A stretch of 29,044 nucleotides of DNA from a virus. Location of the stretch: IMG/VR virus record IMGVR_UViG_3300035698_007992, positions 1-29,044 of that record. One strand, written 5' to 3'. Below the pieces are notes generated by a model. The model ran no database searches. It saw only the letters and a program-made list of their open reading frames with translations, and had not been told where the DNA came from. A program made the translations under genes and the position numbers. Shown here piece by piece: positions 502 to 29,044 of this stretch (within the stretch, counting starts at the first letter, position 1; each line of letters starts with the position of its first letter).

Positions 502-1338
502 TTAAAAGAATCCATCTGAAAAACCATCTGGTTCAAATGAACTTCCATTGTGTGTGTCAAAAGACAAATCAAATCCATGATCAAAACCTCCTATCAAGTA
601 CTCTCCATTATACTCATGCATTGCATTAAAACCTATGTCAAATCCTTCATCAAAACCAACTATTGGAATGGTGTCATCATTAACCGGCATTGCATTAAAA
701 CCTATGTCAAATCCTCTATCAAAACCAATTCCATAATAATCATATAAAGCCATCATATGTGCTGGTTTTAACTCATCTATTTTATTTATTAAAGCTCGTA
801 ATAATGCATTCCTTGTCTGTGACCAACTGGGGTCCATCGAAAGCATCATGTCAAAGCCATTACTAAATCCTGTACCAAAACTTTTTTTATCTCCTTGCGC
901 ATCTGATCTAACTAAAAAGAAAAACAAATTATCAAGTCCACCACAAGCATCTCCTGCTCTGCTAACACCTGCTATAAAAGGAATAAACTCATATATATAA
1001 ATAGTGTAATTTATAGCACCTGCAATTTCTATGAAATAATTTTTATATTGTCCACCTACTGCTATTTGTCTAGCAAATACTGCTGCTTGCCTGTCTGCTA
1101 AAACTGTTTCTGGTTCAGTTATTCCATAATCTTTTTCATGCTCTGTTATGAGTTCAACTGCTCGCCTTGGGTCTCTTTCCTTTAATAAATCATAAGATCT
1201 TCCATCCACTCTAGACAGTTCATCAGAAACAGAAAGAAGAAGTTGATCTATTACAGAATCAGGATCTTTTGTTATTGCTTTCCCTGGAGGAAGTAATGAT
1301 TTAAGTAGTTTCTTATACTCTTCTGCAGATCTACCCAT
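502..1338 (-). CDS. Mu gp48-like (YmfQ/DUF2313-type) baseplate protein with repeat tail
   Basis: This 278-residue protein is the last wedge component in the Mu order gp46, gp47, gp48. The start at 1338 is chosen because GGAGG precedes it and it overlaps the end of the gp47 gene by eight bases; the longer frame reaching 1410 would add an unsupported hydrophobic leader. The N terminus (YKKLLKSLLPPGKA) is typical of gp48/YmfQ proteins, which start near the baseplate end of the tail and have a run like LLPPGxA. The middle carries RDPRRAVELITEHEKDYGI, also usual for the family. The family is commonly about 180-210 residues. Here the last 74 residues are an added tail of GFDxGFDxGF repeats (see the repeat entry). 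Family assignment is by motif and position; the function of the tail is unknown. Confidence 0.85.
   Translation of the reverse strand: MGRSAEEYKKLLKSLLPPGKAITKDPDSVIDQLLLSVSDELSRVDGRSYDLLKERDPRRAVELITEHEKDYGITEPETVLADRQAAVFARQIAVGGQYKNYFIEIAGAINYTIYIYEFIPFIAGVSRAGDACGGLDNLFFFLVRSDAQGDKKSFGTGFSNGFDMMLSMDPSWSQTRNALLRALINKIDELKPAHMMALYDYYGIGFDRGFDIGFNAMPVNDDTIPIVGFDEGFDIGFNAMHEYNGEYLIGGFDHGFDLSFDTHNGSSFEPDGFSDGFF
526..726 (-). repeat. In-frame 69-base (23-residue) tandem repeats in the gp48-like gene
   Basis: Three units each begin GFDxGFD: GFDRGFDIGFNAM, GFDEGFDIGFNAM and GFDHGFDLSFDTH. The first two units are 23 residues and the third about 21, followed by a terminal GFSDGFF. At DNA level a 29-base stretch is identical at 618-646 and 687-715, exactly 69 bases apart, which points to recent duplication or gene conversion. 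A related GFSNGFDMML sits further upstream in the protein, suggesting the motif was present before expansion. Confidence 0.9.
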
Positions 1339-2431
1339 AATTCCTCCATGTAATTTCACCAAAAACAGGAACTCTATTGATAGGAATAGCAATATCATCA
1401 TCTGGTACATTGAGTTTGTGGACAGTTAAACTTGCAGCAGATCCGACTGCTGCACTTATATCAGAATAATATTGTGTTTCACCTGGACCACCAAAATTTA
1501 ATAAATAATCTTCAAGTTGAGCAGTAACTTGTGTTCTTACGGCAGAATTGTTTGGACTAATACTTATATCAAAATCAACTGCATATAAACTAAGAACTAC
1601 CATATGTAGGCCCGCTTTTGCCCCTACTGGCACACCAATAGTAAGACCTGTAGTTGGATCTATGTGTTCTATTAAATATTCTTTTGTACTCTCCATTTCA
1701 TCAGTACTTGGAATTATACTAGCGTCATTATCTCTAACATATGCAACACCAATTGTTCCTCTTCCTTGATATTGAGGAAAAACCCAAACCCTAGTATTAC
1801 CAGATATTTCTAATGTCCAACTTGCATAATCAAATTCAGCACCGCCATGTGGAGGAGTTCTTTTTCTAGTTAAGACTCTGCTACGATATGATTCATCTTC
1901 TTCTTCCTCTGTTCCACCATCTATACCAGCAACACCGACAGTTATTTTAGTATCAACACCAGCTATTGGTGATATGAAACTAAGTAAGATTCCGCTGTCA
2001 TCATTATATTCACTTCCTGCATCTTTAGCTGTAAAATCAACAGAGAAAGTTCCAGTGGCTCCAACACTAACCTCTTCATCAGTCAAATAAGTATAACCTG
2101 CACTGCTTTCTAATTCAGTTTTAGCTGGGATAACTGCAAGATAAGTTCCTGTCCCAGCTCCGGTTCCTGTTGCCTTTTCTGTCTCTGTTTTCACAACACC
2201 ATATTCATTTCCCTGTGTCTCCAGATTATCTGTGTTAGCAGTAAGCACAAACAACTGATCTTTCTGATATTCTAAAAAGCCATATAAAAGATGAATACTC
2301 CCTGCAAAAACCCTAGCAAATATTTTTGCCAAACTTCTTCTAAGTAAAGAGAAAGCATTTTGTATTCTTGACTTCATATCATTTTGTACTCTTGTGTCTA
2401 TTTCTTCTAATGTAGGTCTATCAAATGGCAT
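1331..2431 (-). CDS. Baseplate J-like protein (Mu gp47)
   Basis: This 366-residue protein is the baseplate wedge protein of the gpJ/gp47 family, which forms the ring linking the tail hub to the tail fibres. Visible family features are the N terminus (MPFDRPTLEEIDTRVQNDM), a central threonine and glycine-rich beta region with GTYLAVIPAKTELES, then the conserved GGTEEEEDESYRSRVL near residue 175, the typical point where the family has D/E-rich residues followed by YR.R, and HGGAEFDYASW soon after. Length is close to the usual 350-390. AAGGAGG precedes the start. It overlaps the gp48-like gene downstream by eight bases and follows the gp46-like gene by 14, which fits the Mu baseplate order. Confidence 0.95.
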   Translation of the reverse strand: MPFDRPTLEEIDTRVQNDMKSRIQNAFSLLRRSLAKIFARVFAGSIHLLYGFLEYQKDQLFVLTANTDNLETQGNEYGVVKTETEKATGTGAGTGTYLAVIPAKTELESSAGYTYLTDEEVSVGATGTFSVDFTAKDAGSEYNDDSGILLSFISPIAGVDTKITVGVAGIDGGTEEEEDESYRSRVLTRKRTPPHGGAEFDYASWTLEISGNTRVWVFPQYQGRGTIGVAYVRDNDASIIPSTDEMESTKEYLIEHIDPTTGLTIGVPVGAKAGLHMVVLSLYAVDFDISISPNNSAVRTQVTAQLEDYLLNFGGPGETQYYSDISAAVGSAASLTVHKLNVPDDDIAIPINRVPVFGEITWRNYG

Positions 2432-28066: not shown

Positions 28067-28813
28067 ATGACTAATTTAAAAAACTATTTAAACGATGGAG
28101 CTGATTATCAAGCTCAAAGTGTATTAGCTTATTTAAGAACACATTTAATTATAGAAGAAAGTGGGAATGACAAATTTAAAAAATACTACCCTATGATAAA
28201 AGCAGGCAGATGGGAAAATTGTCGTGAACAAGGTTATGTCTTAACGATGAATAAGCAAAGAAATGGAGAAAGATTAAATATTGCTTTCTTTGAACACAGA
28301 AATTCTGATGATTTGTGTGCATTAAGTTGGCATCAGAATACAACAAACACACCTACTATAGATACGGCAGATTTTAAAAACGAATGTTATTCTGATAAAT
28401 ATGATGTATCTTTTCGTGTTGCATATATGGAAATAATGAAAATGTGTGAATGGATAATAAAACAATTTTCAGAAGAATGGCAAAGCAATGATTCAATAAA
28501 ATGGAAGCTGAAGGATAATGAAAAGGTAAAGTTACCTAGCTTGGATGATTTATCTAACTTGGATGGTTTAGTAGGTAAAAAATGGTTTTTTAGGACTACC
28601 ACATATCACATGGTAGGCAGGGTTATAAAAAGAATTGGTGATTTTATACAACTTGAGAATGCTTTGTGGGTAGCGGATTCTGGTCGATTTACAAATGCAA
28701 TTAAAGAAGGGAAATTAAACGAAGCAGAACCAGTGGGATTGTGTTTTATAAATTTAGATTCAGTAACAGATTTTTTTCCTTGGTCACACGATTTACCAGA
28801 AAATCAAAAATAA
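28067..28813 (+). CDS. Unknown protein, two-part, upstream partner of the Ser-X repeat protein
   Basis: This 248-residue protein starts with AAGGAG eight bases upstream. It is soluble, with no signal or membrane segment. The N-terminal part (about 1-140) is mixed, with YQAQSVLAYLRTHLII and a Trp-rich helical stretch (MKMCEWIIKQFSEEWQ). The C-terminal part (about 165-240) is compact: GKKWFFRTTTYHMVGRV, then FIQLENALWVADSGRF and SVTDFFPWSHDLPE. This C-terminal block looks like a conserved domain ('GkkwffRT.tyh..Grv....gdf..le...WvadsGrf'), which I recall from phage hypothetical proteins but cannot name. Its stop overlaps the start of the repeat gene (TAATG), so the two are probably coupled and may act together. 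Confidence 0.8.
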   Translation: MTNLKNYLNDGADYQAQSVLAYLRTHLIIEESGNDKFKKYYPMIKAGRWENCREQGYVLTMNKQRNGERLNIAFFEHRNSDDLCALSWHQNTTNTPTIDTADFKNECYSDKYDVSFRVAYMEIMKMCEWIIKQFSEEWQSNDSIKWKLKDNEKVKLPSLDDLSNLDGLVGKKWFFRTTTYHMVGRVIKRIGDFIQLENALWVADSGRFTNAIKEGKLNEAEPVGLCFINLDSVTDFFPWSHDLPENQK

Positions 28814-29028
28814 TGAAAACAGCAATAAAAATCAATATGTCTTGGTCTAGATCTGGGTCTGGGTCTAGATCTGGGTCTGGGTCTGGGTCTAGGTCTAGGT
28901 CTGGGTCTAGATCTAGGTCTTGGTCTGGGTCTGAGTCTTGGCCTGGGTCTGAGTCTTGGCCTAGGTCTGGGTCTGAGTCTGGGTCTGGGTCTGGGTCTAG
29001 ATCTAGATCTTGGTCTGGGTCTAGGTAA
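28813..29028 (+). CDS. Low-complexity Ser-X dipeptide repeat protein
   Basis: This is a 71-residue protein. ATG at 28813 shares its A with the upstream TAA stop; a longer in-frame reading from 28741 is unlikely because it lies within the upstream gene. After a 9-residue leader (MKTAIKINM) come 31 dipeptides, S-X with X = G (13), R (10), W (5), E (3); the first residue is Pro instead of Ser in two. Every Ser is coded by TCT, and X is always GGG, AGG, AGA, TGG or GAG, each one or two base changes from GGG. It has no hydrophobic segment and would be disordered and positively charged. The frame is open for all 31 units and ends at TAA. Translation by coupling to the upstream gene is likely. Function unknown; nucleic-acid or phage-particle binding are possible. 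Confidence 0.75.
   Translation: MKTAIKINMSWSRSGSGSRSGSGSGSRSRSGSRSRSWSGSESWPGSESWPRSGSESGSGSGSRSRSWSGSR
28840..29025 (+). repeat. Diverged hexanucleotide repeat, 31 units of TCT-NNN (mostly TCTGGG)
   Basis: Thirty-one contiguous 6-base units with no insertion or deletion. The first triplet is TCT in 29 units and CCT in two; the second triplet is GGG, AGG, AGA, TGG or GAG. Units are in frame with the gene at 28813. Constant TCT together with variation almost only in the second triplet suggests expansion by slippage of a TCTGGG unit followed by substitution. The plus-strand triplets are largely G-rich, which also gives potential for unusual DNA structure. Confidence 0.95.
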
Positions 29029-29037
29029 AAAATTAAA

Positions 29038-29044
29038 AGAAGGA
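29038..29044 (+). promoter_or_regulatory. Ribosome binding site of a following plus-strand gene
   Basis: AGAAGGA ends exactly at the window edge, 10 bases after the stop of the repeat gene. It is a good Shine-Dalgarno sequence, so a further gene in the same rightward operon probably begins just outside the window. Confidence 0.6.

Follow-up and report, generated by a model that had tools for sequence, protein, structure and literature searches.

Eukaryotic Sm proteins bear Arg/Gly-rich tails, but we know of no nameable system in which an Sm-fold protein is paired with a separately encoded dipeptide-repeat protein, hypervariable in sequence and conserved in composition. In a survey of low-complexity regions from prokaryotes and phages, aromatic residues and arginine were found to be heavily under-represented (PMC6821194). 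The stretch analyzed here, hereafter the window, is the IMG/VR virus record IMGVR_UViG_3300035698_007992, 29,044 bases long. Close to its end lies an open reading frame (ORF) encoding a chain of Ser-X dipeptides. This ORF is one copy of a widespread phage module that associates a small protein of predicted Sm/LSm fold with a low-complexity (S-[R/G/W])n protein. The two genes are paired near-constantly and in either order, the composition of the repeat is conserved while its order is not, and its units turn over rapidly and in phase. It can be considered almost certain that this ORF is translated and that its partner gene encodes an Sm-fold protein.

The repeat gene of the window abuts ORF 28067-28813, as its start codon overlaps the stop codon of the latter (Table 1). 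The first-pass annotation, made from the letters alone, had described a (Ser-X) ORF built from a hexamer repeat, with a leader, a start and a stop, and all of these elements were recovered: the 31 hexamers are in phase throughout, without the frame-breaking indel whose absence had been remarked upon. The first codon is TCT in 29 of the 31 hexamers and CCT (Pro) in the remaining two; the second is GGG (13), TGG (5), AGA (5), AGG (5) or GAG (3), which reproduces exactly the TCT count and X codon set initially given. The array tops by far all tandem repeats of the window, with Tandem Repeats Finder scores of 201 at period 6 and 222 at period 24. The encoded protein carries a net charge of +9 and has no match in Pfam or PHROG scans, and the record stops 16 bases past its TAA.

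A search at the DNA level for TCTNGG units returned at least 119 stretches, in which in-frame (Ser-X) ORFs recur with X mostly R, G or W; the counts from this search hold among the matches listed. A profile was seeded from the C-terminal part of ORF 28067, named CTD (C-terminal domain). Relatives of the CTD were found in 60 of 102 array loci, usually ending 17-100 bases 5' of the first unit. The CTD is encoded in the locus of 57 of 78 usable arrays with mixed X, whereas it accompanies none of 10 pure hexamer microsatellites (Fisher p 1e-5). The reverse search, in which selection is independent of the repeat, relied on a single peptide pattern for one CTD subtype; it identified 389 viral stretches, of which 80 were kept. 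An (S-[RGW])n array was found near the CTD in 75 of these 80 loci. It is adjacent in 73 (55 downstream, 13 upstream, five on both sides) and within 2.5 kb in two more, and two of the five loci devoid of an array are truncated by the contig end. Only two GenBank phage records with a CTD were found, MW202573 and MW202825 (uncultivated, Manatee Spring), and a repeat ORF adjoins it in both. The suggestion that such repeats would follow homologues of the 28067 protein thus stands for its C-terminal Sm-fold domain, but not for its N-terminal PHROG 6319 domain. Apparent fusions of an S-X array to the CTD proved to be arrays located upstream in another frame.

The repeat genes may occur in tandem, each with its own leader and stop: about 15 were counted in locus L016 and 8-10 in L031:1628-3155, with leaders such as MITKR... 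and MRYLFEGS/MRYLIVGS, the L031 block being followed by a queE-like gene. Many S-X leaders display a common hydrophobic motif (ILxNxNTLW or MFIYLxxY) directly 5' of the first Ser, and another group starts with MIKKSIYKRNIW or MVTKRTKYR. A search of genome contigs for a host returned 14 contigs of metagenome-assembled genomes, from many phyla and mostly phage-sized, and assigned none. The only large bacterial contig found with both the CTD and an S-X array is a 649-kb Isosphaeraceae contig of this kind, whose locus is possibly an integrated prophage that could reveal the host.

Several features of the arrays indicate that they are translated. Codon classes were determined for 95 arrays from the CTD-selected loci. 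The Ser codon is near-uniform inside one array and different from array to array: TCG in 37, TCT in 22, AGC in 18, TCA in 12, AGT in four and TCC in two. To note, the TCN and AGY codons are not joined by any single synonymous change. The X residues amount to approximately one third each (mean R, G and W of 0.36, 0.29 and 0.27), and these shares persist where the X codons are AGA and GGA. The selected chemistry is half Ser and about one sixth each of Arg, Gly and Trp, in any order, over 24-92 residues in the sampled arrays. No stop occurs in 3,066 X positions, as compared to about 76 expected from TGG (about 53 TAG and 24 TGA), given how frequently other X codons undergo these changes. A stop codon immediately follows the last unit in 59 of the 95 arrays, and the ATG of ATG-led arrays overlaps a stop codon in 142 of 189. 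The leaders of the relatives are short, often hydrophobic and placed right before the array. Frameshifted or stop-containing relatives, named at the outset as the observation that would speak against a selected product, were looked for in 224 arrays totaling 5,618 units, where a true frameshift occurred about once and a stop inside an array once. Where the phase changes otherwise, one repeat gene gives way to the next, which has a start and a leader of its own, as exemplified by L031, where AGGAGA, ATG, leader, array and TAG succeed one another in each gene. The stops missing from the arrays, the kept frame, the stop at the array end and the Ser codon classes together bear out the selected protein product initially proposed.

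Within arrays, the major-allele frequencies at hexamer positions 1 to 6 are roughly 0.97, 0.97, 0.96, 0.46, 0.92 and 0.95. The free base is thus the first of X (position 4), at ~0.46 as compared to 0.74-1.0 elsewhere over the five main classes, the lowest of the latter values being that of the third X base in TCA arrays. The order of X is mostly random-like: an excess of internal repeats is seen in 21 of 95 arrays, and adjacent units share the same X a little less frequently than expected (ratio 0.89). Among near-identical phages, differences over 442 aligned units number 65 at position 4 and 20 at position 5, alongside 97 unit gaps, and two affect the synonymous third Ser base; as rearranged arrays cannot be aligned with certainty, these counts mix shuffling with mutation. 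Since one and the same turnover makes the synonymous site uniform and leaves X as mixed as can be, the diversity of X is actively maintained, through either selection on composition or a targeted mutation process. A constant Ser next to a diversified X, as first noticed in the window, holds across arrays, and so does a varying unit number: L150 has 44 units and L152 has 24, with flanks about 99.8 percent identical. In the compared pairs, unit changes are whole hexamers. Phase-variable on/off switching, the role conceived for this variation, was rejected, because indels in multiples of six preserve the frame and alter length and order, not expression.

The fold of the partner was addressed by prediction. 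An AlphaFold model of the window CTD, built with 22 relatives, reached a predicted local distance difference test score (pLDDT) of 95.9, and its best PDB rows in Foldseek are Sm/LSm proteins (best E 1.4e-3). Superposition with VIA-align gave a Z of 9.3 and 1.7 A over 60 residues with Sm proteins. A second CTD subtype, related to the first (profile comparison probability 97) and modelled independently, reached a pLDDT of 97.1 with Sm/LSm again as top PDB matches. The CTD is thus predicted to be a five-stranded Sm-type barrel. A sequence search of the PDB retrieved nothing with profile A1 and a single insignificant hit with A2; because such searches fail to reach Sm proteins, the Sm fold is claimed here and not membership of the family. 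Subtype B displays, by eye, an Sm1-like GKLVGVN..VLLED stretch. The CTD is mildly acidic (median isoelectric point 5.1-5.5), while the S-X arrays are strongly basic (mean charge +9.6).

According to Pfam and PHROG scans, the minus strand of the window encodes terminase, portal, HK97-type capsid and contractile-tail proteins; ORF 28067 and the repeat gene, both on the plus strand, diverge from these genes. In the window the CTD is fused to a PHROG 6319 domain; elsewhere most CTD genes are stand-alone, and several relatives of ORF 28067 match its N-terminal part only, so that PHROG 6319 also exists without the CTD. In relatives, the surroundings of the pair vary and consist mostly of DNA replication, recombination, methyltransferase and HNH genes, none of them fixed; the Sm-fold gene and the repeat gene therefore appear to travel as a unit. 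Such neighbors, not being virion genes, do not favor the decoration of the particle that had been envisaged for the repeat protein. A second small in-frame repeat of this phage is found in the baseplate-wedge-like protein encoded at positions 502-1410 (minus strand), which harbors imperfect C-terminal GFDxGFDIGFNAM repeats.

Table 1. Features of the repeat gene and of its surroundings in the window
Feature	Coordinates	Strand	Remarks
N-terminal domain of ORF 28067, PHROG 6319 (unknown function)	28067..28486	+	
C-terminal Sm/LSm-fold domain (CTD) of ORF 28067, predicted, ~75 amino acids, conserved partner	28571..28810	+	AlphaFold pLDDT 95.9
TAATG, stop of ORF 28067 overlapping the repeat-gene start	28811..28815	+	
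Repeat gene	28813-29028	+	71 amino acids, ATG to TAA
Start codon and 9-residue leader MKTAIKINM	28813..28839	+	
(Ser-X) array, 31 units	28840..29025	+	X = G 13, R 10, W 5, E 3; two units start with Pro
TAA stop, immediately 3' of the last unit	29026..29028	+	
AGAAGGA, probably the ribosome-binding site of another gene, truncated by the record end	29038..29044	+	By inspection

Structure matches of the CTD among viral protein models include DUF6948 (Pfam PF22253), and this family accompanies a second class of dipeptide arrays. A DNA search for G-[YDS] hexamers provided another 120 stretches, in which a DUF6948-like gene precedes 89 of 96 usable (G-[YSD])n arrays. The unit is composed of Gly, with a near-uniform codon, followed by Y, S, D or N, as in GGC-TAC, GGC-TCC and GGC-GAC. 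In one member, L249, the DUF6948 domain and its array are fused within a single ORF. Of seven G-X array partners tested, six match the Pfam model of DUF6948, which, at E values of up to 1, matches none of 23 CTD members. A motif, D-L-T-[LI]-G-[QE]-x-K-x-L, precedes the domain in 5 of 64 CTD and 17 of 99 DUF6948 members; it is rare, with five occurrences in the 19,519 ORFs of the first set, all in CTD genes. The occurrence of this rare N-terminal motif in both partner families suggests that CTD and DUF6948 share a common descent.

This sister class is present in cultured phages, among them Iodobacter phage PhiPLPE. In the Ymer genus, seven Pectobacterium phages (PMC11445585) possess repeat genes of 162 to 270 bases, whose lengths differ by multiples of six. 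Between phages Ymer and Amona, the flanks display 0 differences in 3,039 bases (1,768 upstream and 1,271 downstream), while the arrays are widely different, with Phe units in that of Ymer only. These genomes are short-read assemblies (PMC11445585), but misordered assembly does not explain the difference in composition, because misordering cannot change composition. In a term search of the same paper, neither glycine nor hypervariable sequence came up. Gly-X arrays with unusual residues at X (E, K, N) were also observed downstream of DUF6948-like genes in the Chlorobiaceae phage CV-1-33 and in a 335-kb plasmid of Monoglobus pectinilyticus, where phage-type recombination genes close by suggest a phage-plasmid.

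What could such a pair achieve? The repeat polypeptide would be a sticker-and-spacer chain, selected for composition and indifferent to order; disordered or loosely β-like, flexible and multivalent, it would act through its bulk chemistry. Arg and Trp may be the stickers that contact nucleic acid, acidic surfaces and one another, with Ser and Gly as spacers, and the chain may bind nucleic acid, the mildly acidic Sm-fold partner, or both. A multivalent ribonucleoprotein assembly or condensate would result, probably early in infection. Slippage and unequal recombination would homogenize the arrays, likely leaving a single Ser codon in each, while selection on composition would keep X mixed. The (G-[Y/S/D])n proteins with DUF6948 would represent an acidic/tyrosine version of the same design. 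Nucleic-acid binding and phase separation by the repeat protein, as initially suggested, are plausible. With an Sm-fold partner encoded among DNA-metabolism genes and a sticky repeat, an RNA- or DNA-binding assembly or condensate formed by the two proteins is the most economical reading, and is put forward tentatively, belief falling a little short of doubt.

Several observations weigh against it. About a quarter of the mixed arrays have no CTD inside the fetched DNA. The classical Sm1/Sm2 residues do not appear recognizably conserved in the CTD, and no PDB Sm protein is reached by sequence profile. The profile-profile similarity of CTD and DUF6948 is weak (probability 31 percent), and their kinship therefore rests on the fold and the N-terminal motif. 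The sole in-frame fusion of partner domain and array in a single ORF (L249) belongs to the DUF6948 class. Finally, RNA binding, ring formation, complex formation and phase separation are putative.

Other explanations have to be confronted with the same data. A neutral hexamer microsatellite or an assembly artefact, open in frame by chance, would suit a slippage-prone repeat whose TCTNGG unit is naturally open in two of three frames, known mostly from short-read metagenome contigs and accompanied by pure hexamer microsatellites in the same collection. It is largely refuted already, and scarcely credible, given the stop deficit, the kept frame, the stop at the array end, the same amino acids obtained from synonymous Ser codon classes, the constant gene partner and the sister class in isolated cultured phages. 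The array might instead act as RNA or DNA, by throttling translation through peptidyl-tRNA drop-off at NGG codons, by forming a G-rich structure or as a recombination hotspot. The X codons are indeed nearly always NGG, 5' NGG codons are reported to reduce expression through such drop-off (PMC12204400), and arrays differ between near-identical phages. Conversely, the nucleotides vary by class (TCT, TCG, TCA, AGC, AGT, and AGA/GGA in TCA arrays) while the amino acids remain constant, and the X codons of the sister class are devoid of NGG, which renders this explanation quite improbable.

Targeted diversification, in which a diversity-generating retroelement-like or other mutator randomizes the first X base, finds an argument in the freedom of hexamer position 4 only, in the excess of differences at this position over position 5 and the synonymous Ser base between near-identical phages, and in the unlike arrays of Ymer and Amona between identical flanks. 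Adenine-specific mutagenesis is nevertheless excluded, because AGC and AGT arrays retain their A (conserved at 0.98-1.0) while the first X base varies, and unit deletions and internal duplications are ordinary slippage or recombination, able to shuffle X without touching the Ser codon; such a mutator is unlikely. Its extension, a dedicated mechanism randomizing one nucleotide per hexamer so that an Sm-fold ring uses changing polypeptides as interchangeable multivalent tails, is rather improbable; if true, it could help for example in building a condensate for replication or in evading a host factor that recognizes the peptide. A cationic, Trp-rich peptide, membrane-active or toxin-like, that the Sm-fold protein would regulate or neutralize, would account for the small overlapping gene pair and for Arg and Trp in the same polypeptide (net charge +9 in the window), and antimicrobial chemistry would suit an activity independent of order. 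Ser making up half of the residues, the 8 to 15 copies in some phages (L031, L016), the acidic, Gly-rich sister class and the variable gene order make a toxin distinctly unlikely.

At least several hundred viral contigs carry this gene pair, which has gone unannotated, probably because its second gene is of low complexity and thus masked. The S-X/Sm-fold module is apparently undescribed so far: the open-licence literature searched describes no such pair and does not mention DUF6948, and on phage dipeptide or hexanucleotide repeats it returned only unrelated work, mainly on C9orf72. The pair represents a natural experiment on a protein selected for composition and not for order, and on tandem arrays homogenized at neutral sites yet diverse at one site. 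Were the condensate reading true, phages would encode an Sm-type ribonucleoprotein system together with a disordered partner belonging to it; as the sister class exists in cultured phages, the module is testable now.

Comparison with known systems highlights shared and distinct features. As in diversity-generating retroelements, one codon position varies within a constant scaffold, but without adenine specificity, and the variation lies within a tandem array that gains and loses units. Close relatives differ in unit number, as at contingency-locus microsatellites, but six-base units hold the frame without on/off switching, and composition appears to be selected. Like the low-complexity regions of prokaryotes and phages surveyed in PMC6821194, the arrays are of low complexity and repeat-encoded, but their composition is the opposite, Arg and Trp providing ~60 percent of X. 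DUF6948 resembles the CTD by structure matches among viral models, its position beside a dipeptide-repeat gene and the N-terminal motif of some members, and differs in that its Pfam model misses the CTD and its arrays are G-[YSD] instead of S-[RGW]. Finally, the predicted fold of the partner is that of Sm, LSm and Hfq proteins, and an Sm fold goes together with Arg-rich low-complexity sequence in both cases. In its logic, the phage arrangement may be comparable to eukaryotic Sm proteins and their Arg/Gly-rich tails, with the difference that the partner gave no hit to a canonical Sm sequence motif and that the phage low-complexity part is usually a separate, hypervariable Ser-X gene.
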